IMG/VR virus record: IMGVR_UViG_3300025853_000048
Coordinates: 25,450 to 89,449 of that record
DNA from: a virus
Length of the DNA stretch: 64,000 nt
Direction: 5' to 3' (one strand)
Shown in pieces: positions 9,001-57,850 of this stretch. Under the pieces are notes generated by a model, which had not been told where the DNA came from, ran no database searches, and saw only the letters and a list, made by a program, of their open reading frames with translations. Each line of letters starts with the position of its first letter. The stretch's first letter is position 1. Made by a program: the position numbers and the translations under genes.

Positions 9001-12000
9001 ACTTCGGCTTCCCGAGCGGGCATTCCCTCAATATCAGGCTGGAAATCACGGCCCGCTGCCTTGCGCTGGTTCATCCAGTTTTCATCGTAGTAAGCATCAG
9101 TTCTGCTCACCGCATCGTAGAAGTAGGAACCGATGCTGTTGCTCTGAATGATTGCCACTTCCTCAATGATCAATTGCTGGCGCATATCCTCGGGCAGGAA
9201 ATCCAAAGCTTTGTGCAACCTGCCAACCAGGTCCGGTTTGGAAATCTGGTGGTGATATTCTTCTTCCAGTGCCTTGATGTTATTCTTGGCCTGACGTTTC
9301 AGTTCCTCGGGACTGGTCTTATTGCGTCGGAACAGGTTAGCCATCTTGTCCATGATTGAATCAAGCTTGGCTTTGGCTTCGGCGATGATCGGCAGATTCT
9401 TGACCGAATCCCAGATACTCTTCTCAACCCCTTTCAAGGTGTCTTCCGCTTTCGCCCGTGTGGTTGGGTCTAACTCGGCGAGAATCGCGTTGCGGCGTTC
9501 TATCGCTTCGTTTCGGTTCGCCTGCTTCTGACGCAAGTTCTGCATCAGTGTCGGCGGGATATTGACATAGGAATAGGTCTGATTGCGGTCGGATTCGTAA
9601 ACCACCCGCATAGCGCCTGTTACAGGATTCCAACCGATCTTGGTGATAGTCCGCGATCCGTGCTTGAGTCCCGACGTGGCAATCCACTCCATATCCGGGT
9701 CTTCCGGAAGTTGCGGCTCGAGCAGTTCAGCCCGCTCCCTGCCGGTCATCCCTGGTTGCACTTCAAGATCAGGCTTCGGTTCGGGTGCGGTGGCTTTTTC
9801 CTCACCCAAAAGCATGATTTCGTCCAGCACCTTGCGGACTTCGGCGGGAATATCGTTGTGGATCGGTGATCCGGCCAGTTGCGCGTAGATGCCGCGTATA
9901 ACTTCTGCTACCTTGGCCAGTGCTGCCTTCAACCTGTCCGGTAACCCATCAGGGAAGTCTCCGTCCCGCATATAGCGTTCGACGTGACGGGCAAAGACTT
10001 CTTCCTGGTCATCGGTCCATTCGTCGGTAGCGATGCCGTACGCGGCGTTCAGTTCGCTACCGAGATCAGTGCCCTTGAGCAGTTCCCGGGACATGTGCGC
10101 CACCTCATGCATGATGGTGGATTCGTTGGCCTTGCCCTGGATTAGCCCAATCAGGTTCTGTGATCGGTCGTAAAAGCCCTGAGGGTCGCCATGCTCATCC
10201 TTGGAGAAGAGGATGATTGCCTCTTCCTTGGCAATGTTCTCGATATCGTAAGGTTCGACCAATGCGCGGACCTTGGCGTCGTAGGTGAGTCTGCCCTGAG
10301 TGTCGCGGGCTTCGATCTCGCCCGCCGTGCGCTGGTAGTCGGCAAAACCTTTCTCAGCGGCGCCTATCCCGTCCGGTCCTTCAATTTCCTGAATACGAGC
10401 AACATACTCGCTTCGTTCGCCCATCAGGTAGTCATACCTCTCTTTATTGCCCTCTTTGGACGCAAGGGACATCTCTTCATTGAGATACATGACGTACCGG
10501 TTGAGGTCGTCCACGGTTTCCTTGTAGTTACGAATATTATTTTGGAAGTTGCCACCCTTGGCGAAGCCTTCCTCTTCCTGAATCCAGTGCTGAATTTCAT
10601 GAATCAGGGTAGATAGTGCGTCTTCCTTGTTCTTAGCCCTAACCGTGATTTGCGGCTGCAGGTCGAACAGTCCTTCCGATTCGCGGTTTTCGTAGGGTTG
10701 GAATTCTCCACCCTCATCCTTTACATCAGGGCCAATTGTGATAATCAGGTCCACGTTGCCTACATCGGGGTATGCTTCGTAAAGTTCTGGGTGATCAAGA
10801 ATATCGCTGACAAAAGTTGCCCTGGTGTAATCAGATTGAACTGGTCGCACGGTGTATCCGGAATCCAGCTTGTTGAGTTTTGTCACTTCAGCATCCGCTC
10901 CTGCCTGGTCGTCATACCCGGAAACCTCGTTGCCTCTGGAGTCCACAACGTTGTAAACGGTTGCGGAATCGCTCACGCCATCCTTGAAGGAAGCGCCTTT
11001 ATCCGGAATCTCCCACCGCATCTTGCCGTCATACCTGCCTGGGAACCAGCCGGTCACGGCCCGGATCTCCTTGGCCGACTTACCTGCCGCTGCCATGGCC
11101 TTGGCTGTCTCCAGTGTGTCCTGCATTACCTCTGGAATAGCGGCAGTTTCGCCAGCGTATTGGGTAAGCACGCCTTCCTTCTTGTCGGTCATCCGCTTCA
11201 ACCGCTGGAAGACCGCTTTTTGCCGGTTCGGCTTCAGGCTGGCGACATTGTTCAGGAAGTGAGCGGTAACCATTCCCAGGGCTGCGTCATTTTCACGATC
11301 GCCAGTTTCCAGGAAAGTAACCATCTCGCGTACCGCTGCATTGACCGATTTCGGGTCATTCAGGTCGGCGGTTTGTGGAGTCTTGCCCCCCGCTTGCTCT
11401 TGGAGCTTCTTGCGTGCGGTTTCCCGCTTGTCTTGATCACTGACTTCCTTCTTTCCAAGGTTGCGCGGTGGCGTGTAGCTCGATTCGGCTTGGCTGCTCG
11501 CCTTGGCTATGCCGGTAGTCGTGGGGGGAACCGTTTCCGCCACAACACCCTTTTTCCCGGCAGTTGTGGCGGCTTCGACCGGCTCGACAATCGCCTTCAT
11601 CGGCTGAAACTCGCCAACCCCATCGTGCATGTTCCAGCCGGGGCGGATCACTCGCACTTTTTCACCGCGGACCACGTTGCTTTCGCCCGCGTGTAATCCA
11701 GGATCGGCAGAAACAACCTCGCCTTCTGCCCCGATCTCGATGAATCCAGCATCGCGAAACATCTCGTTAATCAGCTCGCGGGTTTCATCGTTCTCTGCGT
11801 GCCTGTAGGCCGTCTGTAGCTGTATAAAAAACTTGCGTTGCACTTCTGCCGTGGAAGCATCGATGTGATTAATGCTCCTGCCGGTAATGCCTTTCGCCTC
11901 GTCCGCGAATACCGTTTTGATCAAACTGTTGAATGATGCACGCATGGACTTCATCACCGCTTTCGGAACGGTTTTACTCTTATCCATTTCGCGCATCTTC

Positions 12001-15000
12001 GCCTTGGCGTTGGCAACTGCTGTACGGAATTCTGCCGTCTTATCGTCCACCTGGGCTTCCTCCACCACCTCAGGGTTCCGCATCTCATCCAATCGGCGCT
12101 GAAAATCCTGGCGATTGCCAACTAAGTGCGTCGAGTAGTTGCGCTTGTAAGCATCAAACAGTTGATCGTCATCAGCCTTGCCGTCGAAACTCTCCTGCAG
12201 GAAGGTGATGTTCTTGGCGAAGGTTTCGGGGGTGATGGGAACTTGCTTGGATTTCGGCTTCTTGGTGCTGGGCGCTTTACTCCCGGATTCCTCGCCCTTC
12301 CACTCATCGACCACCTTCTGCCCAGCCTCGGTAATCTCATACTCTCCGGCCTCGTTAAGCCTCGCGTAAGCCTCCGGGCGCTCTTTGGTGGTGTTGGTGA
12401 GGAAAGATAGATATCGCTTGCCAGCGGGCCTGTCCGTGTCTCCTGCGAGGTTTAGCAGGGCATCAAACATGGATGCGCTGGAAATACCTTTCGGAAACTT
12501 CGGTTTTGCGCCTTTCGCGGCGTGAATTTCGATATTTTCAGCCAACGACGGCGTTTTGGCGTCCAGATCCGGACCTGCCGCCTGCCGCATCTGGTTGAGA
12601 CGTTTGACAATCCGTTTCCTCTGATCGATGGCCATTGCCTTGGTTTCCGGATCCTTGATCTCGGTAATCATCCGGGATAGGTTTTGCGCCACCTGCTTGA
12701 GCCACCTGATAATGACCGGCATCATGTATTCGATACCCTCAATCTCTGTAACCCGACCGGCAAACTCCTTGTCCTGGATGATCATCCGGTGGAATTCGTG
12801 AGCGCCTAGAAAGTCTCCTTTTTTCAGACTGGAGAAACGATCAACCGGTTCATGCCCCAGGTACTGTTTCAGATATGTGATAATTTCCGGCGTACCCTTT
12901 GCTACCTGATCGATAAATTCATCGCTAATATCCAACGACTCGCTCCGAGCAACTTCCTGATCGATTATTTCGACAGCTTCTAGGGCATCTTCCCGGTATT
13001 GTTTCGGGACGCCTTTTAGACGGGAAATAAAGTATGATCGCTCCACTTCTCGTTTGATATCTTCAGGCAAGGCTCGCCATAACTCTTTAGCCTCTCTTAT
13101 CGACAACTCCTCTAGTGCCGCCTGGTGAATCAACTCCTCACTGAGTAATACAGCAATCCTTTCCTGGGAGTAACCGCTCCTGGCCAGCCACCCCAGATCG
13201 ACCTTCAGGGCAACATCGCCATTGGGTAACTTGCGGACGCTCATCGCCGTGCCGGAAGCGACTTCCTCAAGGCCAACTTGTTGAATTTCTTCAATCGGTC
13301 CGTAAACAATACCCCCTGGAAACGCACGCTCGCCATACTTGGCAACTTCCAACTCGATCACCTCTGCAACTTTTTCAGCCTTTTTCTGGTAAGTGGGAGG
13401 GATTTCATCGATTGCCACGGCAAGATCATCGGTACCCTGGTCATTCGGCACGATGTAATCCCTTTTCTCCGGCAACGGATCAGGAACCTTGTTGCCTTTA
13501 GGTTTCGGGTAGGCCTGCTTCTGCTTCGGACGCTTGCGCTCGGTCGGCTCCTTGCGCTTCGGCTTGATCACCGATTCAATGCCGTCAGTCAGTTCTCTCA
13601 GTGCCGGGTTTTCATCCAGGTTGTTGTAAATCCAGTTCAGGAACTTCTTCAGGTAGCGGCGGAAATGAGGCGATGAGGTGCGCCCGTTAAACTTGCCCTC
13701 GATAATTGCACGGGTTGCTTCGGAAACCTTCTTTGCCGGGGTCAACCCATCGAATCCATTGTATTCCTTGAGCATCAGCCCGTGCAAAACTTTGTCGTAC
13801 TGCGGGGAACGCGGGTCGAACGCCTTGGATGCGGCATCGATCAGCTCCGGATTATCGGCGGCAAACACCCGTTGCGCGGCGTGAACTCCCTCGTGGAAGA
13901 TGGTTCGCTCGATCTGGGCAACGGAGCGACGCTTGTTCTGGTCTTCGAAGATCACAATCGCCGGATTGCCGTCGCTATCAGTGACGGTTACGCCAGTTCC
14001 CTTGCGGGATAGGCTCCTACCGAGCAATGCTTCGCCGTGCGCCTTGTTCTGCGCCACGATAACGCGTACCCCGCTGGCCTTCAGGGTGTCCAGCATCGCC
14101 GACTGGTTGCCGATCGCCCGGTTGATCTTTTTGATACTGGATAAGGTTTCATCCTTTTGTGGGGCAGGAGTCTTCGGCTTCTTGGCTTTCGGTTTCTTTT
14201 TTGCAGGTGCCGCTACCTGGTCAGCCCTGACCAAGGTGATATCGTAATCATAGGGATTGATCGTTTCATCCCCCGGAATCTGGGGGGCTACCTTGCGCAA
14301 CGCTTCTTTGGAAGAAGAGGCGATGGAGGTGGGCACAGTAAACGTTTGATCACCGGTGAGAGATGAGACACTCCAGTAATCACCACCCCCATCGCTGCTT
14401 AGAGATTCACCACCGGTCGAAACTTCTTCCGGTGATGCTATTGATGAGTTTGCGTCATCAGCATCTTGTTCCAAAGTAGAGTCCGCAACTGTTTTTTCTT
14501 CTTCCTCGGTCGATTTAGGGTCAGTTTCAGGTTCTGCTTCAACTTCTTGCTCTGCGGGAGCGGAAAACTTGGCCTTGGCCGTCTCGTAATCCATCGTGAG
14601 GAACGCTTCTGCCGCTTCAGGGAATATTGCCTTTGCCTGATCATGCGCTTCTTCGGTGATAACTGGGACCGGTCCTTCCGGGCTATCAACTATTTCATAA
14701 ACTGGTGAGTTCAGGTGTCCAACGGGAGACTTGAGTGCAGGATGGTCAAGGTTCACCGCTTTGTTGTCTGCCCCTATCCTGACCGCTGCCGCTGCCTGAA
14801 GGGTGGCTATGTAGTTAGCCATCGCCCTTTTGTAGGCTCCCGCATTACCCTCCGGGTCAGCTTCCTCTGCCTGCTTTGCCTCAGTTGCCGCGTCTTTGGC
14901 CGCGTTGATAGCGCCTTCAATCTCGGCGGAAAAGCCTGCCGCCATTTTGACGCTCTGGCGAATCTGGGTCAACCGGTCAGCTTCGATTTCCTCGATCCTC

Positions 15001-18000
15001 TCCACAACCGCCTTTTTGCCTTCGATGTCGTCCTCTGCCTTGCCCTGGTATTCCTGCAAGAGTTTATCGATCTCTGCTTCTGCGTCCCGGGAACCGTAAG
15101 AAGCAATATCGCCAACCAGTCTTTGCGCGGCTTCGATTTCCTCCTGCTGGATAAATTCATCGGGTTCCACATACTCATTGATCCGGTCAAACACATCTCC
15201 CGGGTCGCCCGACAATTCGCTTTTAAGCTGCTCTCCGGAAAGCATGGCCTGCTTGACCATTTCAGCAATGCTTCTTGCTCGCTCATTGATTTGTTGTTCA
15301 CGAATTTGCGGAGCATCCCCGATGATGCTGCTAATCCCGGACAATCCAGCAGCCCCGGAACCAATGGCACCACCAATCCCGGCACCCATCCATACCCCGT
15401 CGATGACTTGATCCCAATTAACTCTTCCGTCATCCATGAATCCCTGGATGGCCTCTTCTTTTCCTTCATCAAAGCCTTCCTCGATTATTTCAGGGAAACC
15501 ATGCTTGGCGAATCCTTCGGCTGCTGAATCCCAAAACTCCGGTGACCGAACATAGTTAAGAAATTTGGCATCCACATCCGGGTTGTTTTTCGCCCATTTG
15601 GCAAATGCTGGCATATCCAAGTCGCCAGCCTTGCGCTTGAATTTATTCAGGACGGCCAGTTCACCAGTCGCTCCAAATGCGCCAACAATGGCCGATGAAG
15701 TCAACCCTTGTACTACTCCAACCCCAACCGCATGATCCAGCGCATCCGCGTGGGACATCCCTTTTTCAATGCCCTGCTTGTAGCTTCGACTCACGGCAAT
15801 ACCGAAACTTGCCGATCCCGCTTCACCCATTGCTGTCGCAAAACCAGACCTGGCTGCCCATTTCGAAACTTGTTTCTCAATCTGTTCTTCGGCGGCATCT
15901 TTGCCTATCTTCTTGGTCAGTTCGCTGCCTATCTTTTTCTTGAGTACTTTTTTCCCAACGGAACTTACCGCTGTGGCTGCACCCAATGAAAAAATCATGG
16001 AGGGGAGTTCTGAAAACACTTCTGAGACAAATTCGTTGGCCACTTGTGATACACCACCTCCGATTGCCCCTGACTGGACAAGTGCAGAAAATTCTTCACT
16101 TGTTTCGTTTGCTCCCGTTAACCACTCCTCTTTGCCTGTGATACCCCCGGCAACCCCTCTCAGGATCATTTCGAATTCGCCCACAGCACTGCCAGCAGCA
16201 GCGAGAACCCATTGGATGGCTTTCTCTGAAAGGTTCTGCTGATCCAGGTAGGCTTCAATCAATTCTGCCTCGCTCTCGTGCGGGTTATTCTGCTCGAATT
16301 TAAGGAAACCTGTCAACCCTATGGGAACATCTGTGTTGACGCCCCGTACGGAGATTTTGCGTAAAGCTTCTGCCACCTTGGGTGCTGAAATGTTTCGAGC
16401 GTGTTCAAATTCTGCCTTTGCTTGCTCTATCTTCTCAGGGTCATCAGTAAGCTTGGATAACTCGGCATCTAGGGCAGGGGTATCGAAAAGGTTTAACGAT
16501 CCCACATTTAGTTGCAAATTTCCCGATTGCAGTTCCCGGACCTTCTGCCCCGGCAACCATCCGGAATGCCTTTCTTGCAAATCGCGAACGATGCGATCTT
16601 TCTGAGTTCTGGGGATGTTGTATTTCTCAGCTAGTTCTTCCGCGTGCTTGATCCGCAGTTCGTGCCGTTTACGGGCTTTTTCCTGCTCTTTCTCATCATC
16701 CCGGGGTTTAAAGTTATCAACCAGTGCTTTTGCCGTCCGCTTGACTTCCTCCTGCCAGTCTTTAGCTTCCTTTTGGTCGTAATTGCCTTCCGTTTCTCTA
16801 AATTTCTTGTAGAGATCCTTGGTGAAATCCTGCTGGTTGGAGATTGATTTTTGGAATCTTTCCCAATCTTTCTTGCTGGAAAGCTTACGCCGCTCATCCA
16901 GTTTTGATTGCTCGGCTTTGGTTTGCTTGTCAAACTTGGTTAGCTTTTCGTTTGCCTGCTTCTGTCTTGCCTTGAGCTCTTCCTGCTTCTGGAGTTGGAA
17001 ATCGCGAATCATCGCGTTCTTTTTATCCAGGTCTGCCTGATCTGTGGCTTTGCCTAAAGAATCGGCAAATTCGGAGACTTCCTTTTTTGCTTCGGCCCCG
17101 AAAGCTTCCAACTCCTCGTTGACTGTTTTCAGCATAGCTTCCCGCTTGCTGTTCCGACCAAGGGCGAATTCGTTAATATTCTTCAGGTTCTCATCCTGCT
17201 GAATATACATTTCCCGCAAATCGTCAGCCAGGTTGCTGGATAAAGGATCTTTTCTCAGATTGGCAATCGCCTTGTCTCGTTGCTCCTCAACCTGATCAAT
17301 TTTGAGTTGTTCTTTGGTCTTCGATCTACGCTCATTTTGCGCCTTGATCTCGCCTTTCTCCCGCTCGAGTCTCGCTTTGTTGCGCTCGATCTGGGCAGTT
17401 ACTTTCTGCCGCTTCGCCGCCAGTTGTGCATTTTCAGCATCCAGTTGTGCCGCCGATCTGCGCTTGACAGCAGTTTCACGCTCCTCTTTTTCCAGTGCCG
17501 CCAACTCAGCCTCCGCAGCTTCGTTTACTGCTGCCTCCCGCTCTCGCAAGTCGGCCATCCTGGCGGCAGTTTCAGCCCTTCCCGCTTTCTCTATTTCCTT
17601 GCGGTCGGTTTCGGTTGTGGCGCCATCCCGGCGAGTACGGAAAATATCGTCCTCAATCTCCCAGGCTTCTCCCTTTAGTTTCTGGTAACTGGGCTTTAAT
17701 TTACGATACGCTTCCAGCTTTTCCTTTAGTCGGATGACATCCGGGGTGTATTCCTCAGGAGTCCACTCGCCATAGCCTTCATCTTGCCATTCCGCTTCGG
17801 AGTTTTCGTGATCATCCTCATCGTAGACAACCCCAAACTCATTGTACCCGAGTCGTTCAAGTTTGGTCGCCACTTCATCCTTGCGTAGGCGCAACTCCTC
17901 CAACGACGCCTTGCTGGCTTCCTCGGCCTTTTTCCGCTGCTCTTCCTGGGCTTTTTCTGCCTCTAGTTTCTTCCATTCCTTGTCAGTATGTAACCACCTG

Positions 18001-18473
18001 GAGACTCCATCCACGTCCTTATAGGTTTCGCGCCCGATCTTCTTTGCCTTGCGCTCAAATTCAATGTTGTAGTGGTCTTTCTCGCGCTTCGCCTTTGCTT
18101 TGGCTTCATCTTCTGCAGCTTTGCGTTTGGCTTCCTCTGCCTTTGTTTTAGCCGCCTGTTTTGACGCCTGTTCGCGCTTCTTGTCTTCCTGCTGCTTGTA
18201 CCATAGCGAATCATCTGCTGCGTCCTGGCGCTGTTCTCGCGCTATCTCATCCTGGTAACCGCTCCTGACAAATGAGTTTTGCAGGTCGGAATAGCGAAAC
18301 GGCATCCCGGAGGCTGCTTTGCCGCTCGGTCTGGTCGTAGAGTTTCCGAACAGGGGTTTATGCCCCGTCGTGGATGCTGGTTGGATCGGCTCGGTATCAG
18401 GTTGAGATTGCTGATCAAATTTGTCGTCATTGATCAGTCGTTTCTTCGGCTTGTCGTCGTAGTCGTTGCCCAT
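1..18473 (-). CDS. Giant multidomain phage polyvalent-type protein (3' end outside window)
   Basis: One minus-strand frame runs without a stop from an ATG at 18473 past the left edge, giving at least 6,157 codons. The frame was checked at the ends and at every motif below. Residues about 95-620 are Lys/Glu/Ala-rich coiled coil, and about 760-1060 a Gly/Ala-rich, membrane-like stretch. HExxH zincin motifs lie at about 1527 (HEGVH), 2625 (HEIQH), 2789 (HEVAH), 3693 (HEIQH) and 3921 (HEIIH). Residues 3420-3550 resemble an ADP-ribosyltransferase domain (YHGT start, QIKSADPVTYD end). Residues 5074-5167 look GNAT-like (SD..VSEPAYRVYEAL). Residues 5225-5341 resemble a DdrB/ParB domain (VIAGNGRSSGIRLAY). 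This mix is the hallmark of polyvalent proteins of phages and conjugative elements, thought to enter the host with the DNA; delivery here is inferred. No strong Shine-Dalgarno sequence precedes the ATG. Confidence 0.9.
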   Translation of the reverse strand, partial: MGNDYDDKPKKRLINDDKFDQQSQPDTEPIQPASTTGHKPLFGNSTTRPSGKAASGMPFRYSDLQNSFVRSGYQDEIAREQRQDAADDSLWYKQQEDKKREQASKQAAKTKAEEAKRKAAEDEAKAKAKREKDHYNIEFERKAKKIGRETYKDVDGVSRWLHTDKEWKKLEAEKAQEEQRKKAEEASKASLEELRLRKDEVATKLERLGYNEFGVVYDEDDHENSEAEWQDEGYGEWTPEEYTPDVIRLKEKLEAYRKLKPSYQKLKGEAWEIEDDIFRTRRDGATTETDRKEIEKAGRAETAARMADLREREAAVNEAAEAELAALEKEERETAVKRRSAAQLDAENAQLAAKRQKVTAQIERNKARLEREKGEIKAQNERRSKTKEQLKIDQVEEQRDKAIANLRKDPLSSNLADDLREMYIQQDENLKNINEFALGRNSKREAMLKTVNEELEAFGAEAKKEVSEFADSLGKATDQADLDKKNAMIRDFQLQKQEELKARQKQANEKLTKFDKQTKAEQSKLDERRKLSSKKDWERFQKSISNQQDFTKDLYKKFRETEGNYDQKEAKDWQEEVKRTAKALVDNFKPRDDEKEQEKARKRHELRIKHAEELAEKYNIPRTQKDRIVRDLQERHSGWLPGQKVRELQSGNLQLNVGSLNLFDTPALDAELSKLTDDPEKIEQAKAEFEHARNISAPKVAEALRKISVRGVNTDVPIGLTGFLKFEQNNPHESEAELIEAYLDQQNLSEKAIQWVLAAAGSAVGEFEMILRGVAGGITGKEEWLTGANETSEEFSALVQSGAIGGGVSQVANEFVSEVFSELPSMIFSLGAATAVSSVGKKVLKKKIGSELTKKIGKDAAEEQIEKQVSKWAARSGFATAMGEAGSASFGIAVSRSYKQGIEKGMSHADALDHAVGVGVVQGLTSSAIVGAFGATGELAVLNKFKRKAGDLDMPAFAKWAKNNPDVDAKFLNYVRSPEFWDSAAEGFAKHGFPEIIEEGFDEGKEEAIQGFMDDGRVNWDQVIDGVWMGAGIGGAIGSGAAGLSGISSIIGDAPQIREQQINERARSIAEMVKQAMLSGEQLKSELSGDPGDVFDRINEYVEPDEFIQQEEIEAAQRLVGDIASYGSRDAEAEIDKLLQEYQGKAEDDIEGKKAVVERIEEIEADRLTQIRQSVKMAAGFSAEIEGAINAAKDAATEAKQAEEADPEGNAGAYKRAMANYIATLQAAAAVRIGADNKAVNLDHPALKSPVGHLNSPVYEIVDSPEGPVPVITEEAHDQAKAIFPEAAEAFLTMDYETAKAKFSAPAEQEVEAEPETDPKSTEEEEKTVADSTLEQDADDANSSIASPEEVSTGGESLSSDGGGDYWSVSSLTGDQTFTVPTSIASSSKEALRKVAPQIPGDETINPYDYDITLVRADQVAAPAKKKPKAKKPKTPAPQKDETLSSIKKINRAIGNQSAMLDTLKASGVRVIVAQNKAHGEALLGRSLSRKGTGVTVTDSDGNPAIVIFEDQNKRRSVAQIERTIFHEGVHAAQRVFAADNPELIDAASKAFDPRSPQYDKVLHGLMLKEYNGFDGLTPAKKVSEATRAIIEGKFNGRTSSPHFRRYLKKFLNWIYNNLDENPALRELTDGIESVIKPKRKEPTERKRPKQKQAYPKPKGNKVPDPLPEKRDYIVPNDQGTDDLAVAIDEIPPTYQKKAEKVAEVIELEVAKYGERAFPGGIVYGPIEEIQQVGLEEVASGTAMSVRKLPNGDVALKVDLGWLARSGYSQERIAVLLSEELIHQAALEELSIREAKELWRALPEDIKREVERSYFISRLKGVPKQYREDALEAVEIIDQEVARSESLDISDEFIDQVAKGTPEIITYLKQYLGHEPVDRFSSLKKGDFLGAHEFHRMIIQDKEFAGRVTEIEGIEYMMPVIIRWLKQVAQNLSRMITEIKDPETKAMAIDQRKRIVKRLNQMRQAAGPDLDAKTPSLAENIEIHAAKGAKPKFPKGISSASMFDALLNLAGDTDRPAGKRYLSFLTNTTKERPEAYARLNEAGEYEITEAGQKVVDEWKGEESGSKAPSTKKPKSKQVPITPETFAKNITFLQESFDGKADDDQLFDAYKRNYSTHLVGNRQDFQRRLDEMRNPEVVEEAQVDDKTAEFRTAVANAKAKMREMDKSKTVPKAVMKSMRASFNSLIKTVFADEAKGITGRSINHIDASTAEVQRKFFIQLQTAYRHAENDETRELINEMFRDAGFIEIGAEGEVVSADPGLHAGESNVVRGEKVRVIRPGWNMHDGVGEFQPMKAIVEPVEAATTAGKKGVVAETVPPTTTGIAKASSQAESSYTPPRNLGKKEVSDQDKRETARKKLQEQAGGKTPQTADLNDPKSVNAAVREMVTFLETGDRENDAALGMVTAHFLNNVASLKPNRQKAVFQRLKRMTDKKEGVLTQYAGETAAIPEVMQDTLETAKAMAAAGKSAKEIRAVTGWFPGRYDGKMRWEIPDKGASFKDGVSDSATVYNVVDSRGNEVSGYDDQAGADAEVTKLNKLDSGYTVRPVQSDYTRATFVSDILDHPELYEAYPDVGNVDLIITIGPDVKDEGGEFQPYENRESEGLFDLQPQITVRAKNKEDALSTLIHEIQHWIQEEEGFAKGGNFQNNIRNYKETVDDLNRYVMYLNEEMSLASKEGNKERYDYLMGERSEYVARIQEIEGPDGIGAAEKGFADYQRTAGEIEARDTQGRLTYDAKVRALVEPYDIENIAKEEAIILFSKDEHGDPQGFYDRSQNLIGLIQGKANESTIMHEVAHMSRELLKGTDLGSELNAAYGIATDEWTDDQEEVFARHVERYMRDGDFPDGLPDRLKAALAKVAEVIRGIYAQLAGSPIHNDIPAEVRKVLDEIMLLGEEKATAPEPKPDLEVQPGMTGRERAELLEPQLPEDPDMEWIATSGLKHGSRTITKIGWNPVTGAMRVVYESDRNQTYSYVNIPPTLMQNLRQKQANRNEAIERRNAILAELDPTTRAKAEDTLKGVEKSIWDSVKNLPIIAEAKAKLDSIMDKMANLFRRNKTSPEELKRQAKNNIKALEEEYHHQISKPDLVGRLHKALDFLPEDMRQQLIIEEVAIIQSNSIGSYFYDAVSRTDAYYDENWMNQRKAAGRDFQPDIEGMPAREAEVLIDYLSSLDATPRDKGAIEDALKKQRPGEKASQLTYLLDMIDQGYVPTDEKGKTRLALPGESKQIAQAKRNLNKAPAALAEYLTGGKQAAPTPKPKTDANPDDFASGDLDLDTLSKPKRKKAKAKDASSTAGTITDTLSKKKFTPKQQQEYERISAGLTELSRKLGLAKTDDEINALTDLAGALIAGAQKLRKEAGLSEAEFSIEALAQVPDKVRKARGRDTLKQVDEERDREYLAAVEAGDLNTVERLIDEAAKEAGYNIGPAYHGTSHAENIEVFNDFSYFTDDWWNADGYASGERVYDVYLKMETPLVIDAKGEKWDELSSEHGSSTQDVVRNFDDTKYDGIIFEDIGDSWMDDAEAGSSTVYVTTNPNQIKSADPVTYDKDGEVIPLSQRFDSDKDSILYQFAGENAEVPQFMADSLETAKAMAAAGRDSETIRAATGWFPGKYDGKMRWEIPDEGAKIYDEVLDLLKNGDTEEVELRDLLDHTALFEAYPEIGKIPVSLKDGIDAVYINIGGKERISIGAQGRGLSSLLHEIQHAIQHREGFARGSSPLEHRQGMQMADEDFDRLNKEVSRKFMVTKYFESAEENGTTPVEELRKRHELRIKHAEELAEKYKRRSAAQLDAENAQLAAKKYSRLADREIDPRELELTEMMSDIDEAREWYQHEKEKYEKEREKRIFAPDRDYRRTAGEIEARDVQSRANLTAEQRAAIAPYSSENIAPEDAILLQRGGKGRAIKGFYRRADNLIGLIEGKADAITLLHEIIHLDRELLKGTEIGNRLNEFYGEATDDWSPESEEKFAEHAEEYFRRGKFPQGASDKIKEAFRVVKEIARNLYAHLKGELPNEIRDIFDEIIIAGSGDHMERRSVNDIKAGNSKEYVAERDKARAATTRERQKKAKSEDQQRAERHAEAIERDKQEAPRRKKLAGLRRKYAKAKTSEMKLELIEQAEQAGFSKSDIDDNYDPSQGTYSVVDKDLDELRQKFKPINVYTGLLKGKDDEVLQRLVHEGEESLDEADKQYLIDEGFAVYEGGETQESFPTENGIADYPNRPAVDAEIAKVATRLSDNPGSMVSLGELVPIVMDQGFSKREVEDGLYRIYQRGEGNLTLHDQQSYISDSEREFALKLGVDDMHLFAIGRRAKKPSDKELRQYEEFHRKVDGRNIPMGPATNEEPGTKNEERGSLLPLDWQGKPLAQDPQDTTEKTVDIRHAEELKKWINGEDLSPEEYDQLLDLRILVVDMGDADTPSQLQRSKEGEADGLMINPALEKFILGDRSQETMEVVSNELKLLKTGYSIHAAKTGKSERPDGLNAAQVRAMMAIGEGKKGHPGSAKVLANNGIIYKKKFEKDGTQELTAEGRKKFEAQKRALEGEPPKAETRKPKAKKKVAEEKPDTLTKSKRTTDSAGNTKLIAWDKHSQSDEQWKRGVEYAEKQLPEWKNTARTTGVGSHYVEGLNRDLDKVNSMLNMVREKVRNFSSSANVRPNKNLFFWVGVKDYLDNVESKLLADISAESERYNALPVESQRIEDAVQFWEEKERRDGKSYQDKINEIKGETGKDFEDAEEKRLGEGAAIFAKSAPGKKLELWSDNPRKALPKSASEVAHRKRLGDLFSITSRYNELKTDKAKSELLKKTGGWLSIYEVEAAIESYKDRLVNITGVDLSEDSKRHPGPHPGVTKYPNVGEVIYYDPTGSSIFRSVEVTNDLGNGIFSGTIVEPGPKELIGQIVEMDLSEVAVQTPKKKTAAKKTDPIALAEQAIETYAGSLKLQKEAGRIADLSHQEASKDEGLKGAFFSRVAEVMFALRRTQVGDVVSVRNDKDRVIEELLGYSEASIGKEGVEAQDFISKVFMVDKGQKREADWDDVNAPNKLAPITEEQVQRLEEFAQTKSKKTAKAGKHPGNTGVFDLDESVFEEEGSIKLSEDGFRASIRDEKDVEVGYVTAGEYEGKVRIHKSTLQGIHQGKKLGIKAYQAIIDKAHEDGKDVMSDNYVSEPAYRVYEALSRRGYDVDLSNAQKGTKSGRTVYTPINYKKPAVTVRKPNTGQKSPADGAKSPDVADIDGTISTGTPNGAKATFRYRVVDATDLDGMIEAEINADQTRQRSGNRSSMEQIERIASSIDPDFLLDSRKANDGAPVVSGGSVIAGNGRSSGIRLAYERGNAMAYETAVRDFAQEEGINLAGVKQPVLIREVIEFTSGDQRSFVVESNPKQGGLGESVSEQALLDAEAIGYSTLSGLRFNVNNQLTADSLRAVATKLEQSARGITRTQSGEFDQAEASRRVMAAFVTRLVEKAGKDSADVTAILESDGGKRIVSAVAKVAPELAKLDDDLSLAGDVVEAILSLRSGMHAVEQGNFRNLSDWLTNRKAELVSEPLSEIGQLLLDDLVTSTKLKKDRSSNEFPFDETLREYLTFAQREQKNRDDASQTEDIFNDERQDQSPETYFAKINRIAGFPETGAAEKTLAESTKEGEEGELSQQSPFQKLSDDFDAIEAEIKIAVSRSKAITNEQRKEARKKLVTLSKQMLTKTVPDAIRELETLGTEEAAKLEEELFLNAAELTASAVGLIPGPVGMVADAIGTGIDIKQRDPVGALLGIASAFELDLIAKPVKFKRGLEAMSETIKALKSMKTSLDSVENVKTIVAATRKDKTNQTEINDNADMFQVAGVEEDFSLVGEQTVETEFEAPDTRTDAEKDAEVGQEQLFDEKPKTKKQIFEDRKKALDAAFLSGRQKFLDAVTTDEQRQEEIDIIQNETKRQSGLIAKSDIDLDLAVAVVETYGEKGWDTPLFVLGLKNTPRNKQYWTAGVQRVSEPYDKGEYFEEIGFDPTQSIQSQVGLPESAGKTMWVDLKRQRGREGFGLKWGKTEMVEIKGMPQNARIAEPNNSFWEAWRTDKAGMKSQGYHVRKENGEWQVLDTSVTENISVKDAVGRDIPAVDYFKDGRKRVYEVRERKGSKFVNVLIGSIGDNPTTEWVPMLPNAEIEVFKPGMTPDKQREQDRKRKDQNSNKT
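7098..7204. repeat. Direct repeat inside the giant gene, copy 1 (107 bp)
   Basis: Bases 7098-7150 match 17412-17465 almost exactly, and 7152-7204 match 16621-16673. Here the two segments are joined end to end; in the other place they are about 740 bases apart. They encode coiled-coil motifs (KRRSAAQLDAENAQLAAK and ELRIKHAEELAEKY), indicating internal recombination or gene conversion within the giant gene. Confidence 0.85.
16621..16673. repeat. Direct repeat inside the giant gene, copy 2 part A
   Basis: 53 bases identical to 7152-7204, in the coiled-coil N-terminal third of the giant protein. Confidence 0.9.
17412..17465. repeat. Direct repeat inside the giant gene, copy 2 part B
   Basis: About 54 bases identical to 7098-7150; encodes the same coiled-coil motif. 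The near-perfect identity at the DNA level implies recent copying. Confidence 0.9.
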
Positions 18474-25746: not shown

Positions 25747-26040
25747 TCATTTTCGGCCCTCTTCAGCAACCCGGACTGCGTTGCGGACCAGGCTGGTGAA
25801 TATTGACAACTGGGTCTTGGGGGGTGCGCTCCTGTGTCCCCGTTCCCGTGCCATGTGGAAATAGCCGCAGAATTCGCATTTGTAGACAATCAGCGGGGTT
25901 CCGGATTTCTTCTCTGATTGCGCTTTAGCGGTCAGTGCGAGTTTGCGCCTTTTGTAAGCGTGCTTGCCGCATTTTCGGGGTAGTTTGGCGACCTTTTCGT
26001 GTGCTCTGCGTTGCCTAGGTTTCTGTGTTCTTTTGCTCAT
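25747..26040 (-). CDS. Small zinc-ribbon-like protein
   Basis: A 97-residue basic protein with Cys/His pairs KCGKHAYKRRKLAL (about 22-35) and YKCEFCGYFHMARE (about 52-65), the pattern of a two-knuckle zinc ribbon seen in small phage and actinobacterial proteins. It overlaps the last codons of the recombinase gene upstream. It probably binds DNA or RNA. The 159-base gap on its left (25588-25746) holds no gene, only a weak inverted repeat near 25672-25697. Confidence 0.75.
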   Translation of the reverse strand: MSKRTQKPRQRRAHEKVAKLPRKCGKHAYKRRKLALTAKAQSEKKSGTPLIVYKCEFCGYFHMARERGHRSAPPKTQLSIFTSLVRNAVRVAEEGRK

Positions 26041-27082
26041 CTTTTTCGCTCAATACGTTGGTTTCAAAAGCCCCGCTCATATTGGTGTGGTTGTAGGTCT
26101 GGTTCGTTATATCCAAACCGCTATGCCCTAGTTTGTAACTGATCTCCTCCAGCGTCATGCCTTTCTGATAGGCGTGCGTGGCGACCGAGTGACGCAACAT
26201 GTGCGGTGTGCATTTCGGCAACTGGTGTGCCTTGCAAAGTTTGTTCAGAAAATCATTTACCCAGTGCCGGGAGTAGCCCACCCATTGCCCATGTACCTTG
26301 TGCGAGAAGATCGGTTCAGTCTCATCGTCGCGGCCTTTGTCCTGGATGTGCTTTTCGATCCTGACAGCGATCCTGTACGGGATCTCCACTCTGCGTGTCT
26401 TCTTGCCCTTGGTGTTCTCTGATCGAAAAATGAAATAATGCTGCCCTGTGGCACCGTCTCTGCGGAAGTCCTGCGCCTGGAGTGATATGAATTCCGTTAC
26501 CCTGGCACCAACTGAGTAGAGCGTGTAGAACGCCAACCATCGGATCTGATCGGCTGTTCCTGCCGTGCCTTTGTCCTTGCGTTCTTCGAGCACGTCCAGC
26601 CATCGCTCCACCTCCGGTTCACTCAGAACCTTGTCTTCGATGATTCTATCGGGCCGCTGCAGTTCGATTTCAACTCCGACGTTATACTGTAGATAACCCA
26701 GTCTTTGCGCGTATGACATCAGGGATTTAATCGGATCAATGCGAGTGCGGATCGATGCGGGTTTGAGCGTCTGTCCGTTGGGTAACGTTTCCGCTTTGAC
26801 CTGATCGACGTATTCAGTCATGTCTGCCAGGGTGACGGTTCGTAATGGTTTTTCCCAGCCGATAAAATCTCGGAACTTGCGGATATTGAGCGCGTAAGTC
26901 TCCTGCGTGTTCTCCGATGGACGGGAGCGGATAAACATTTCGATTAGGTGATCGTCGTCCCGAGCTCCGGACATATCCGGTTTCGGCTGGTGCGGGTGGT
27001 CGATCGGGGTGCCGACTGCATACTGCTTCCGCTCTGCGATGTCGCCAGGTTCGGGGTCCAGGATTTCGAATTCTTCAGGCAT
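26015..27082 (-). CDS. Tyrosine recombinase (XerC/D-like)
   Basis: A site-specific recombinase of about 355 residues. Positions are relative to the chosen start at 27082, which begins MPEEFEILDPEPGDI directly after the upstream gene. A SAM-like core-binding domain covers about 50-140. The catalytic domain has Arg in SVGARVTEF, HMLRH (His-X-X-Arg), His in KLGHSGLDI and the nucleophile Tyr in NQTYNHTN. It lies far from attP and differs clearly from the second recombinase at 56163-57338. It may resolve multimers, recombine a different site or promote integration; only its family is certain. Confidence 0.93.
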   Translation of the reverse strand: MPEEFEILDPEPGDIAERKQYAVGTPIDHPHQPKPDMSGARDDDHLIEMFIRSRPSENTQETYALNIRKFRDFIGWEKPLRTVTLADMTEYVDQVKAETLPNGQTLKPASIRTRIDPIKSLMSYAQRLGYLQYNVGVEIELQRPDRIIEDKVLSEPEVERWLDVLEERKDKGTAGTADQIRWLAFYTLYSVGARVTEFISLQAQDFRRDGATGQHYFIFRSENTKGKKTRRVEIPYRIAVRIEKHIQDKGRDDETEPIFSHKVHGQWVGYSRHWVNDFLNKLCKAHQLPKCTPHMLRHSVATHAYQKGMTLEEISYKLGHSGLDITNQTYNHTNMSGAFETNVLSEKDEQKNTET

Positions 27083-27083
27083 T

Positions 27084-27476
27084 TTAAACTCTCTGCAATT
27101 CACCGGATAAAACATCGTGTTCAATACACGGATCAATAATTTCCCAGCCCAGTTCTCTTAAATCGTCCTGGACATCACACATTTCCGACCACGCTTCTTT
27201 TGGGTCTAGCTCGTAAGCATAGTCATATCGGAACCAGGGGCGACCACCTGATTCCCCGATCGTCACGTTGGAGCGAACGCTGATCAGTTCGGATAGGGAT
27301 TTCGGAGGGGGTTTCAGATCGCACATATTAAGAGCCTTGGAAATATTCTCGCCAATCTCTGCCAACTCCTTGGCGCGATCCTGATTGCCTTCTCTTGCCT
27401 CTTTATGACACCTGTGGACGATTTCGCGCAACAATTGCCCTACAGTTATCTCACTTAACAAATCTTCTTTATTCAT
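27084..27476 (-). CDS. Hypothetical protein, 130 aa
   Basis: A hydrophilic helical protein (N-terminus EITVGQLLREIVHRCHKEA, C-terminus a Trp/Asp-rich region). The stop lies one base before the recombinase start, and the first codons overlap the upstream zinc-ribbon gene. No family recognised. Operon context suggests a small early or accessory role. Confidence 0.65.
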   Translation of the reverse strand: MNKEDLLSEITVGQLLREIVHRCHKEAREGNQDRAKELAEIGENISKALNMCDLKPPPKSLSELISVRSNVTIGESGGRPWFRYDYAYELDPKEAWSEMCDVQDDLRELGWEIIDPCIEHDVLSGELQRV

Positions 27477-50823: not shown

Positions 50824-51021
50824 TTATGCCGTCTTCCTTTTCCGGTTCGGTCCGTATAAATGTATATTCACCTTCCCGGATTGAAATTTTGGTAGACTGA
50901 ACTTAACCGCACGCCGGATGATCTCGGCCTTTGGCATCCCAGTTGCAGTGTGAATCTTTTCAATGAGCTCTGCTTCGGGTTCATCGTAGCGTGTGGGTAT
51001 TGGATTGGTTTTCATTGCCAT
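50824..51021 (-). CDS. Ribbon-helix-helix regulator 1
   Basis: A 65-residue protein. TNPIPTRYDEPEAELIEKIH (strand and first helix) and GMPKAEIIRRAVKFSLPKF (second helix) are a standard MetJ/Arc-like RHH fold. Its plus-strand neighbour at 51146 is a paralogue with nearly the same motif. The promoter before it (TTGCAT, 16, TATACA) ends about at the ATG, so its transcript may be leaderless. It is probably a repressor of the divergent gene or of itself. Confidence 0.8.
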   Translation of the reverse strand: MAMKTNPIPTRYDEPEAELIEKIHTATGMPKAEIIRRAVKFSLPKFQSGKVNIHLYGPNRKRKTA

Positions 51022-51145: not shown

Positions 51146-51385
51146 ATGAGTGCTAAAAAAGCCAACCCGATACCCACCCGATACGATGACGAAACCACCG
51201 AGAAGTTGGAGCGGATCAACAAAGCCACGGGGATACCCACGGCTGAAATCATCCGACGTGCGGTTAAGTTCGCCCTGGATAATGCCAGGGATGCCCGCAG
51301 TTTGGAGTTCCTGCTGGGCGACCGGGATATGATCGAAGAAATTTTCGGTCCCCTTGAGGAAGATGGAAAATCGAAGGATGGTTAG
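51146..51385 (+). CDS. Ribbon-helix-helix regulator 2 (divergent paralogue)
   Basis: A 79-residue protein with NPIPTRYDDETTEKLERINK and TGIPTAEIIRRAVKFALDNA, clearly paralogous to the protein encoded at 50824-51021. It adds a C-terminal acidic helix (LEFLLGDRDMIEEIFGPLEE). The two genes are divergent across about 125 bases, as in two-component repressor switches. It is transcribed towards the small gene at 51429. Confidence 0.8.
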   Translation: MSAKKANPIPTRYDDETTEKLERINKATGIPTAEIIRRAVKFALDNARDARSLEFLLGDRDMIEEIFGPLEEDGKSKDG

Positions 51386-53282: not shown

Positions 53283-53378
53283 CTTGCGTATCGTCCGCAA
53301 TACACAAACCTCGTAGTGTTGAGCTTCCCCTAAAACGGTGGACAGGCATCGATTAAACATTCTTAATAATCAATAATC

Positions 53379-53711
53379 ATGTCTAAAACAGGAAGAACTT
53401 ACACAGAAGAATTTCGTCGCGATGCGGTCGATCTCTTACTTTCGAGCGGAAAACCCGCAGCACAGGTTGCCCGGGAACTGGATGTAAACGTCAACAGCCT
53501 GCGAACCTGGCGGGACCGGATCCTCAACCAGAGCGGAGGTGGAAGCCGCGACGCCGCAGGCGGAGAGGCTGGAGCCGGAGCGTCGGTTGAGGAGTTAGCC
53601 GACGAAATCAAACGACTCAGAAAAGAAAACGAGTACCTTCGCCGGCAGCGTGAGATCTTAAAAAAGGCAGCCAGCATACTGGGCGAAGACCCGCAGATCG
53701 GTATGCGTTGA
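53379..53711 (+). CDS. IS3-family OrfA (transposase N-terminal part)
   Basis: A 110-residue protein with an HTH (RTYTEEFRRDAVDLLLSSGK then PAAQVARELDVNVNSLRTWR) for end binding, and a leucine-zipper region (ELADEIKRLRKENEYLRRQR). The slippery heptamer A-AAA-AAG lies at about 53659-53665 in the zero frame, within EILKKAAS. The downstream -1 frame stays open into OrfB, so a fused OrfAB transposase is expected. Confidence 0.93.
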   Translation: MSKTGRTYTEEFRRDAVDLLLSSGKPAAQVARELDVNVNSLRTWRDRILNQSGGGSRDAAGGEAGAGASVEELADEIKRLRKENEYLRRQREILKKAASILGEDPQIGMR

Positions 53712-54592
53712 TCGAGTCGTTGCGGGAGGATTTTGCGATTACCGAACTGTGCGAGATTTTCGAAGTATCCAAAAGCGGCTACTACAAGCATTTTTCGAGG
53801 CAACCTTCGCAAAGAGAAAAGGAAAACGAAGCCATTCTGGAAAAGATTCAAATGATCAGAGCCGAACCGTTTAAAAACAACTACGGCAGTCCCCGAATGA
53901 CCGAAGAGTTGCGTAAGCATGGATTTGATTGTTCAGAAAATCGAGTCGCCAGGATCATGGCGGAAGCCGGTATAGATGCTTCAGCAAAGGCGGCCTTTCG
54001 TCCCAAAACAACGATTCCTGATTCCAACGCCTCACCGTCCCCCAATCTCATCAAAGACCTGGTCCCGCGCGGTCCCGGTGAAATCGTGGTCAGCGATATT
54101 ACCTATATTGCCACCAAAGAAGGCTGGCTATATCTGGCTGTTATCATCGATTTATTCACCCGGGAAGTAACCGGCTGGAGCCTCGCAGATCACATGAAAA
54201 CCGAGCTGCTGATTGACGCTGCGGAAAAGGCAGCAACGCAAACTCCAATCACCCGGCAGACTGTTTTTCACAGCGACAGAGGATCTCAATACAGCAGCAA
54301 CAAAATGCGCAAATGGTTAAATGCCCGCAATGCCAGGCAGAGCATGAGTGCTTCGGGATATTGTTATGACAATGCTGCCTGCGAATCATTTTTCTCGATA
54401 CTGAAACGCGAATCATTCCCGGATGGTTGTGTATTCGAAACCAAAACCGATGCAAGACGACAGGTTTTCAAGTATATAGAAACCTTTTACAACAAAGAAC
54501 GAATCCACACTGCTTTGGGGAATATTTCCCCAATCCAATTTGCTCAAAAACACTTGAACAAGCGAAATGCCGACCTAAAATCGGCAGCATAG
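53708..54592 (+). CDS. IS3-family OrfB (DDE catalytic part)
   Basis: A 294-residue integrase-type DDE domain. The residues are D in VVSDITYIATKEG, D in FHSDRGSQYSS and E in NAACESFFSILKRE. Its separate start would be a TTG overlapping the orfA stop, but production by -1 frameshift from orfA is more likely. Upstream helix-turn-helix residues ITELCEIFEVSKSGYYKHF complete the fusion. No stop or frameshift interrupts it, so the element could still be active. Confidence 0.94.
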   Translation: MIESLREDFAITELCEIFEVSKSGYYKHFSRQPSQREKENEAILEKIQMIRAEPFKNNYGSPRMTEELRKHGFDCSENRVARIMAEAGIDASAKAAFRPKTTIPDSNASPSPNLIKDLVPRGPGEIVVSDITYIATKEGWLYLAVIIDLFTREVTGWSLADHMKTELLIDAAEKAATQTPITRQTVFHSDRGSQYSSNKMRKWLNARNARQSMSASGYCYDNAACESFFSILKRESFPDGCVFETKTDARRQVFKYIETFYNKERIHTALGNISPIQFAQKHLNKRNADLKSAA

Positions 54593-54648
54593 TCTGTCCA
54601 CTATTTCAGGGGAGGGCCATGTATCAGATTGCGCGGTGAGCGAGACAC

Positions 54649-54710: not shown

Positions 54711-55421
54711 CTAACTGGCCAACGCCAACTTATCCCCCAGCCCGAGTTCCTTCCAATACCGGTCAACCGTGCGCCGATCGACTCCCAGCAGGGTCGCTAA
54801 CGCGGATTTATCCTGCACCCCTTCGTGAAGCACCGTCTCGCGCATCAGATTGAGTTTCTCGGACTTTGTCATCCTCCGGTTGCGCTCGATGCGCTTAGCT
54901 TGCTGCAACGCCTCACGCTCCCGCTTACGCGCATCCTGGTAATCCCGGATACCGATCACGTTGACCAATACGCTCTCGCATATTTTCGATATCATCTCCG
55001 TGTTCACGGCTACCAGGATCGGCGGCAACGTCCAGACCATGAGGGGCACCACCCAAGCCGGAATCTTCGCCAGTGTCGGCGCGAGTTCGCTGGAGTGCAT
55101 AGCATTGAAGAAAACCGTGAGCAGGCCAAAGCCCAGCACCAAGCAGAGTGCTTGCTTTTTAAACGGCTCATCAAAGATCTTGCCGAGAAAAAACGCGATC
55201 GAAAACACAACCAGCGATCCGTCCACCAGCCCGGGCCAGATCCAGGCCAGATTTTCGCGGATGCCTGCCTTGATCGCCAAATCCAGTAACGCGTCATAAC
55301 TCAGCCGGAACGCCCCTATCAGGACCGCTCCCACAAGCGTAACGCTCGCGATAACCAGTGAGTACTTGAGATTCCGCGCAAACCTTTCGCTTGCGCCCAA
55401 CTTGTTTTGGTTTACTCTCAT
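54711..55421 (-). CDS. DUF2637-like membrane protein with C-terminal HTH
   Basis: A 236-residue protein with four membrane helices (VIASVTLVGAVLIGAF; LAWIWPGLVDGSLVVFSIAF; ALCLVLGFGLLTVFFNAMH; WVVPLMVWTLPPILVAVNT). The LAWIWPGLVDGSL segment recalls the DUF2637/SpdB family of actinobacterial mobile elements. The C-terminal third is a charged helix and an HTH (DKSALATLLGVDRRTVDRYW), which is unusual for a membrane protein. It could sense or anchor DNA at the membrane. Its nearest parallel in the window is the 38200-39588 protein. Confidence 0.7.
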   Translation of the reverse strand: MRVNQNKLGASERFARNLKYSLVIASVTLVGAVLIGAFRLSYDALLDLAIKAGIRENLAWIWPGLVDGSLVVFSIAFFLGKIFDEPFKKQALCLVLGFGLLTVFFNAMHSSELAPTLAKIPAWVVPLMVWTLPPILVAVNTEMISKICESVLVNVIGIRDYQDARKREREALQQAKRIERNRRMTKSEKLNLMRETVLHEGVQDKSALATLLGVDRRTVDRYWKELGLGDKLALAS

Positions 55422-57343: not shown

Positions 57344-57591
57344 TTCAACACTTTTTTCAACACGAAATCACTTCAACACTTCTTCAACACGAACATAGGG
57401 AATATTGCGAATATTAAGAATAATCAACCCCGGTTAATCCCTTATTTCACCGTGGTTTAAGCAGAAGTGACCAAAACGGGAGTGCGGGTTCGATTCCCGC
57501 CGCTGGTATTCTCTACAAGCCTTTAACCAAGCGGGTTAGAGGCTTTTTTACTGGTTTCGAGGAGAGTCGATTTCAACAGTTATTTCAACAC
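57344..57591. other. attP: Attachment site attP (tRNA 3' end with arm sites)
   Basis: The core (57482-57508) reads GTGCGGGTTCGATTCCCGCC then GCTGGTA, the T-arm and 3' acceptor end of a tRNA gene. Arm-type repeats TTCAACAC lie at 57344, 57356, 57372 and 57383 on the left, and TTCAACAG/TTCAACAC at 57572 and 57584 on the right, all in one direction. They sit between int and the 57647 gene. Phage genes lie on both sides, so this is attP, not a prophage boundary. The complete tRNA is not present. Confidence 0.85.
57517..57549 (+). terminator. Terminator inside the attP region
   Basis: AAGCCTTTAACC, loop, GGTTAGAGGCTTTTTTA, a stem with one mismatch and a T-run. It could stop the tRNA operon after integration restores the gene, since it lies just past the tRNA 3' end. 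Confidence 0.8.
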
Positions 57592-57646
57592 CAAACTGCT
57601 AAACCATGACTTGATATACTTAATATTCTAAATATTCTTATTAATC

Positions 57647-57850
57647 ATGCCTTACAGTGATCCAAATTCAAAAACAGAGCATAATCGAACTTACTATGAG
57701 CAGAACCTTGAAGCAATTCGGGAGCGCAAACGTCGCTGGTATCAGCAGAATAAGCAGAGGTTGCTCGAGAAACAAAGACTCAGCCGCTTTGAGGAGAAGG
57801 AAGGAGAGAACCTCCGTGAGATAACCTCCGGTATTGAACTTGCGAAATAA
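57647..57850 (+). CDS. Small basic protein, 67 aa
   Basis: A strongly charged protein (KTEHNRTYYEQNLEAIRERK, then RRWYQQNKQRLLEKQRLSRF) of the kind found in excisionase, HNH-linker or antirepressor-like proteins; no definite family. Placed right beside attP and upstream of a structural-type gene. It could be an excisionase, but the fold is not evident. Confidence 0.6.
   Translation: MPYSDPNSKTEHNRTYYEQNLEAIRERKRRWYQQNKQRLLEKQRLSRFEEKEGENLREITSGIELAK

Follow-up and report, generated by a model that had tools for sequence, protein, structure and literature searches.

The closest described counterparts of the locus analysed here are the attachment sites of mycobacteriophages. According to the account of these phages in PMC3203893, putative arm sites arranged in pairs flank the core in L5, Giles, Pixie and the K1 phages, the pairs are in direct orientation in L5 and Giles, the arm sites of Pixie are six in number, and in the cluster K phages attP lies 5' of the integrase gene and has the 3' end of a tRNA or tmRNA gene as its core; all of these features recur in the present locus. 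CrimD has two pairs and, between the core and the P3 site, a putative terminator comparable to a hairpin described below (PMC3203893). However, the mycobacteriophage sites differ from this one in arm sequence, integrase and host phylum, and in the K1 phages the two pairs are mutually inverted (PMC3203893). The paired direct arm sites of this phage are of a known kind, that of L5 and Giles.

Other systems offer partial comparisons. The core-binding and catalytic domains of lambda Int match those of the integrase encoded here, but lambda, as presented in PMC10865867, does without a tRNA-gene target. In KplE1 the promoter region of the integrase gene intS overlaps the att site, giving autoregulation (PMC2951348), whereas here the known element is the position of an arm pair; the survey of self-regulated integrases in the same source takes integrase genes adjoining a tRNA gene, in contrast to the relatives examined here, in which int lies by a displaced tRNA fragment. 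Assignment of a host phylum by this route has a precedent in the marine phage group G11, which in 2013 was assigned to Verrucomicrobia by an exact attP-tRNA match (PMC3861242). The same logic is followed here; group G11 averages 39 kb and 45% GC (PMC3861242) and the present record has 89 kb, with 50% GC in the window. Integration by tRNA-dependent lysogeny, with a short core of about 10 bp and a phage-borne tRNA (PMC10865867), was considered and set aside, the core being 34 bp long and no phage tRNA being present. No description of the architecture reported below was found in the excerpts consulted of one paper on Verrucomicrobiota and phage attP sites at tRNA genes.

The window, the whole stretch of DNA analysed, comprises 64,000 nucleotides (bases 25450-89449 of a virus record of 89,449 bases). 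The six TTCAACA(C/G) sites that the initial annotation had placed around a tRNA-derived core were all recovered, every one on the plus strand, and they form three pairs (Table 1). Six more TTCAACAS sites (S, C or G) are scattered in the window on both strands, making 12 in total against 5.1 expected from shuffles. By Poisson statistics, a given stretch of 248 bp would contain six sites with a probability of about 8e-14, or about 5e-9 when multiplied by the 64,000 start positions, and the exact pattern TTCAACASNNNNTTCAACAS occurs in the window at 57344 and 57572 only (with two mismatches it is found at two other places; 0.13 matches are expected in all). The occurrence of six clustered, paired sites is beyond chance. 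They lie on both sides of the core, the third pair starting 64 nt past the last tRNA base, and just five bases separate the first site from the start codon of int (57338), and both the attP anatomy and the adjacency to int claimed for this region were borne out. A terminator-like hairpin stands between the core and the right-hand pair, the one example found against 0.4 expected in shuffles, and the two sides of the window's own site share 31 9-mers in the same direction and 21 in the opposite one. The only two copies of GAATATTNNGAATATT in the window fall within GAATATT arrays flanking the core, which may be candidate sites of an accessory or directionality protein or of a regulator.

Table 1. 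Features of the putative attachment site and the integrase genes (window coordinates)
Feature	Position	Strand	Details
Second tyrosine integrase	26015-27136	-	PF00589 E 2.9e-20
int, lambda-type tyrosine integrase, 391 aa	56163..57338	-	PF00589 E 2.8e-07; PHROG 1 E 7.7e-38
int-side arm pair 1	57344..57363	+	TTCAACAC at 57344 and 57356, 12 bp apart
int-side arm pair 2	57372..57390	+	57372 and 57383, 11 bp apart
9-bp tandem array	57400..57426	+	GAATATTGC GAATATTAA GAATAATCA
Common core of the putative attP	57477..57510	+	34 bp identical to 3' part of tRNA-Leu(CAA)
Terminator-like hairpin	57517..57545	+	12 pairs, then T run; between core and right-hand pair
tRNA-side arm pair 3	57572..57591	+	TTCAACAG at 57572, then TTCAACAC at 57584, 12 bp apart
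Second 9-bp GAATATT array	57615..57646	-	Inverted relative to the first; ends just before the start of ORF 57647-57850

A strict T-arm pattern, with five Watson-Crick pairs, was found at one place in the 64 kb, position 57484, and this lies between pairs 2 and 3, as expected from the claim that a tRNA T-arm and acceptor fragment forms the core. The core contains the end of the variable arm, the T-arm, the acceptor strand with the last tRNA base at 57508, and two flanking bases, and ARAGORN called no tRNA gene anywhere in the record, inside the window or outside it. When a 31-base core query was compared with one genome each for 84,980 species, a single match was obtained, in a Verrucomicrobia MAG (JAHDID010000035.1), where the matching stretch is the 3' part of an intact, unoccupied tRNA-Leu(CAA) gene. 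The search of bacterial genomes proposed in the initial annotation has thus led to a specific tRNA gene, and with it the suggested target and route to the host were upheld; the tRNA fragment itself stands, but its extent had been put at 20 bases and the identity with a real tRNA gene covers 34 bp. Since this identity runs through the 3' end of the gene, the core is an element-borne tRNA fragment that would restore its target gene, in the sense of the Islander definition.

Similar sequences are present in the order to which the MAG belongs. A 27-base core was found at no more than one mismatch in 33 of its 386 genomes, exactly in the MAG alone and, among the others listed, with C for T in the acceptor strand; 14 of these loci, that of the MAG included, were submitted to ARAGORN, which called 13 as tRNA-Leu(CAA), the remaining one being cut by a contig edge. 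At the level of the family, 16 of 74 genomes, counting the MAG, carry the 34-base core with up to two mismatches, and three of the four loci scanned are tRNA-Leu(CAA), the fourth not being called. Two core matches in one genome (G191), taken as candidate attL and attR, proved to be a single tRNA, present where the ends of two contigs overlap. Twenty-two bases of the core recur in 14 viral contigs other than the phage; seven of these have them inside other tRNA genes that are whole (Gly, His, Leu, Gln and one odd call), and the other seven have no whole tRNA.

The product of int is an integrase of the lambda type. Twelve aligned sequences agree throughout at R230, K257, H335, R338 and Y370 and almost throughout at H361, which accounts for all the R-K-H-R-H-Y residues of tyrosine recombinases. 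The best solved relatives of the int profile are the lambda Int chains 1z19/1z1b (E about 1e-18), with a sequence match that covers only profile positions 84-364. Ahead of it lie about 83 residues, against about 74 in lambda Int, a length that would suit an arm-binding domain, and this N-terminal stretch displays no sequence match. The strand of int showed no sigma-70-like site. A DUF2637 protein (54711-55421, minus strand) has a second match, with E 3.1e-10, to a PHROG labelled excisionase and may be the directionality factor.

As to the state of the record, integrase, DnaB-like helicase, YqaJ and ERF recombination genes lie to the left of attP, and an amidase and a virion-protein match to the right, in agreement with the phage genes on both sides noted initially. 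A second contig (L002, IMGVR_UViG_3300007345_000167) reads through the attP site with 99.98% identity. Together, these observations support an unintegrated arrangement, and hence the earlier view that the sequence is the phage form, although tandem prophages could in principle look alike. The near-identical relatives of the attP region all turned out to be contigs of this very phage: L002 and L011 are a single contig, and L019, the same as L027, is another, which ends short of attP. Plasmids gave no match. No overlap was found between the two ends of the record, and neither an attL/attR junction nor an integrated copy of the phage was found, the site in the MAG being empty. The window further holds an insertion sequence of the IS3 type (53326-54613), which has two transposase frames and terminal inverted repeats matching at 17 of 20 positions and is also found inside the second contig of the phage.

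Taken as a whole, we consider it very likely that this stretch is the attP of a temperate tailed phage, in which int and the three arm pairs serve to recombine the core with tRNA-Leu(CAA) of Verrucomicrobiota. The N-terminal domain of the integrase would bind the three arm pairs and the core-binding and catalytic domains the core; DNA bending would bring the arms close to the core, and the arm pairs would hold the integrase complex together. The 34-bp core would then recombine with the identical stretch of the tRNA-Leu(CAA) gene in a host of a Verrucomicrobiota lineage, an integration address that we infer from the core match and from the relatives described below. The host would keep the 5' part of the tRNA, and because the phage supplies an identical 3' part, along with its own terminator-like hairpin, the tRNA gene would stay whole. 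In the predicted prophage, the late-gene end would adjoin the restored tRNA, and the opposite end would carry int, next to the displaced tRNA fragment. Furthermore, the first arm pair lies directly at the start codon of int, and for this reason int is probably repressed by its own product once this is bound, by analogy with systems in which int is autoregulated.

A different reading of the same locus is that the core is a relic and the site inactive, the phage integrating elsewhere through its second integrase or persisting as a plasmid. A second tyrosine recombinase is indeed encoded and the lack of an integrated copy would fit, but the int frame is whole with every catalytic residue in place, the arm pairs are intact, the core agrees with that of a real tRNA gene over 34 identical bp, and the surroundings of the second integrase gene contain no T-arm fragment; we regard this reading as very improbable. 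No clear 12-bp pair was seen upstream of the second integrase gene.

In order to place the predicted attP in context, 30 integrase loci were fetched as relatives from the 166 genomes with matches in the order of the MAG. A tRNA fragment consisting of T-arm and acceptor is present upstream of int in 23 of the 30, on the strand opposite to int in all 23, and the window has the same divergent arrangement of fragment and int. This count leaves out seven loci: L046, L048 and L050 have the 5' part of a tRNA-Arg upstream of int in place of the 3' part, L031 apparently has a tRNA 5' part and L045 an imperfect 3' part, both judged by eye, and L029 and L051 complete the set. Islands carrying a 5' fragment are known from Islander, where they number 159 of 3919 (PMC4383910). 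None of the 30 int loci contains a whole tRNA.

Second copies of the core were sought in 11 genomes, each with its own core. A further copy was found in eight, and in all eight it is a whole tRNA gene (Ala, Cys, Phe or Arg) while the copy on the int side is not whole; therefore, int in the relatives ends up opposite the restored tRNA. Whole tRNA and fragment share a contig in four of the eight, namely G303 (19.2 kb), G083 (35.5 kb), G088 (18.4 kb) and G129 (7.5 kb). One genome (G046) has three copies, the third of which is likewise a fragment and lies where a contig begins, and in G257, G243 and G128 the int-side fragment is the sole copy. Searches made with the core of another genome gave nothing in G220 and G050, and in G189 and G091 gave copies not linked to their integrase. 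In a separate observation, six viral contigs (L003, L004, L007, L010, L013 and L017) have in common a tRNA 3' fragment, by eye tRNA-Gly(CCC), in which no whole tRNA was called; they seemingly represent another group of phages targeting a tRNA.

TTCAACA is not found as a repeated motif before int in any of the relatives, and for this reason the comparison was based on pairing and spacing, and the role assigned to TTCAACA in the phage rests on its position and pairing. The 62 bases before each int start were searched for direct repeats in which 7 or more of 8 bases agree, with a spacing of 10-14 bp. Such a repeat was present in 18 of 31 sequences including the window, that is, in 17 of the 30 relatives, against about 2 expected from shuffles of the 31 rows and 20 of 279 control windows inside genes; for repeats of 8/8 bases the figures were 14 of 31, 0.1 expected and 2 of 279. 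These rows are not independent, as some relatives are close kin. The shuffles were of single bases, and no row was dropped. The spacing was 12 bp in 11 of the 17 relatives, 11 bp in four and 10 bp in two, and the motifs vary, e.g. GTTGTTAC, ATTCTTAC and CGCTCCCA; one relative (L042) has two int-side pairs, as the phage does. The remaining 13 of the 30 had no pair at the int start in this test, a count that may be affected by the use of an internal GTG/TTG start in L039, L040, L041, L056 and L057 and by matches beginning at residue 37-40 in other rows, both of which may lower the number of pairs detected.

The far end of the elements was also inspected. A 12-bp-spaced pair stands at the tRNA end in six of eight proviruses, and in the four of these six that have a 3' fragment it begins about 50-65 nt past the core. 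In five of the six, same-direction 9-mers common to both ends exceed every shuffle (43 same versus 3 opposite, 31 versus 17, 39 versus 16, 28 versus 4 and 41 versus 8), while in G238 the 18 same-direction and 11 opposite 9-mers are within the shuffles (maximum 21). An int-side pair of the shared motif was not detected in the test in G238 and G046. The two others, G323 and G083, have no 12-bp pair on the tRNA side; in each, the DNA that follows one tRNA copy resembles that following the other, and they may represent something other than simple single insertions. As judged from these loci, relatives of the same order share the att plan and not the arm sequence.

This geometry bears on the possibility that a separate repressor, acting on int and on the divergent gene at 57647, has its operators in the TTCAACA pairs, with the integrase using other arms or the core only. 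The first pair does abut the int start codon, the right-hand pair is upstream of ORF 57647-57850 and binding of a further protein at the site is suggested by the GAATATT arrays. Nevertheless, a 12-bp-spaced pair is present at the tRNA end, away from int, in six of the eight proviruses, and in five of these same-direction motifs common to both ends exceed all shuffles, as is expected of arm sites; we judge an operator role slightly less probable than an inactive site.

A broader hypothesis may be put forward, tentatively and at somewhat less than an even chance: that a broad clade of Verrucomicrobiota integrative elements, among them phages, keeps one att geometry while its arm sequence is free to vary. 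Under this reading, a same-direction pair of about 12-bp spacing would abut the int start and another would lie about 50-65 nt beyond the tRNA end, int would always be found at the end with the displaced fragment, regardless of which part of the tRNA, 3' or 5', the element bears, and the GAATATT arrays on both sides would form a second switch, for excision, in this phage. Were it correct, such elements would be missed by surveys seeking int beside a whole tRNA. For a phylum with few studied phages, the comparison with the relatives suggests a small rule for recognizing prophage ends, namely a tRNA fragment divergent from int, a repeat pair of about 12-bp spacing at the int start and a whole tRNA at the far end.

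The host of the phage probably belongs to Verrucomicrobiota, on the basis of sequence comparisons in which integrase and terminase were searched in one order of this phylum. Of the 386 genomes in the order of the MAG, 166 gave a match to the integrase (best 34%). The terminase matched 37 of 288 (best 36%); 16 of these 37 matches are weak and partial, and the other 21 have E <1e-19. In isolated phages (50,697 records), the integrase gave one match, to an Akkermansia muciniphila phage (24%), and the terminase matched 159 records, with 23-29% among the 20 listed; other uncultivated viral contigs have terminases at 27-36%. The MAG itself had no match to the integrase, the terminase or the IS3 DNA of the phage. 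The host group is probable rather than proven, the searches with the two proteins in bacterial genomes covering one order. A host outside Verrucomicrobiota, the core match reflecting merely a conserved tRNA sequence, might be argued from the 22-base part shared with 14 other viral contigs and from the restriction of both searches to one order, but it is the least probable of the alternatives, as the 31-base match is unique to the Verrucomicrobia MAG in the whole collection and both integrase and terminase have closer relatives in this order than among isolated phages. An uncultivated phage of 89 kb thereby gains a testable host group, a family of Verrucomicrobiota, and an exact predicted integration address.

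Two further features of the record may be mentioned. An uninterrupted reading frame of 9,595 aa on the minus strand (record positions 15135-43922, of which the part in the window is 3-18473) encodes a very large phage protein. In addition, two similar small ribbon-helix-helix proteins are encoded close to each other on opposite strands (50824-51021, minus, and 51146-51385, plus), the former with a match just under the Pfam cut-off.
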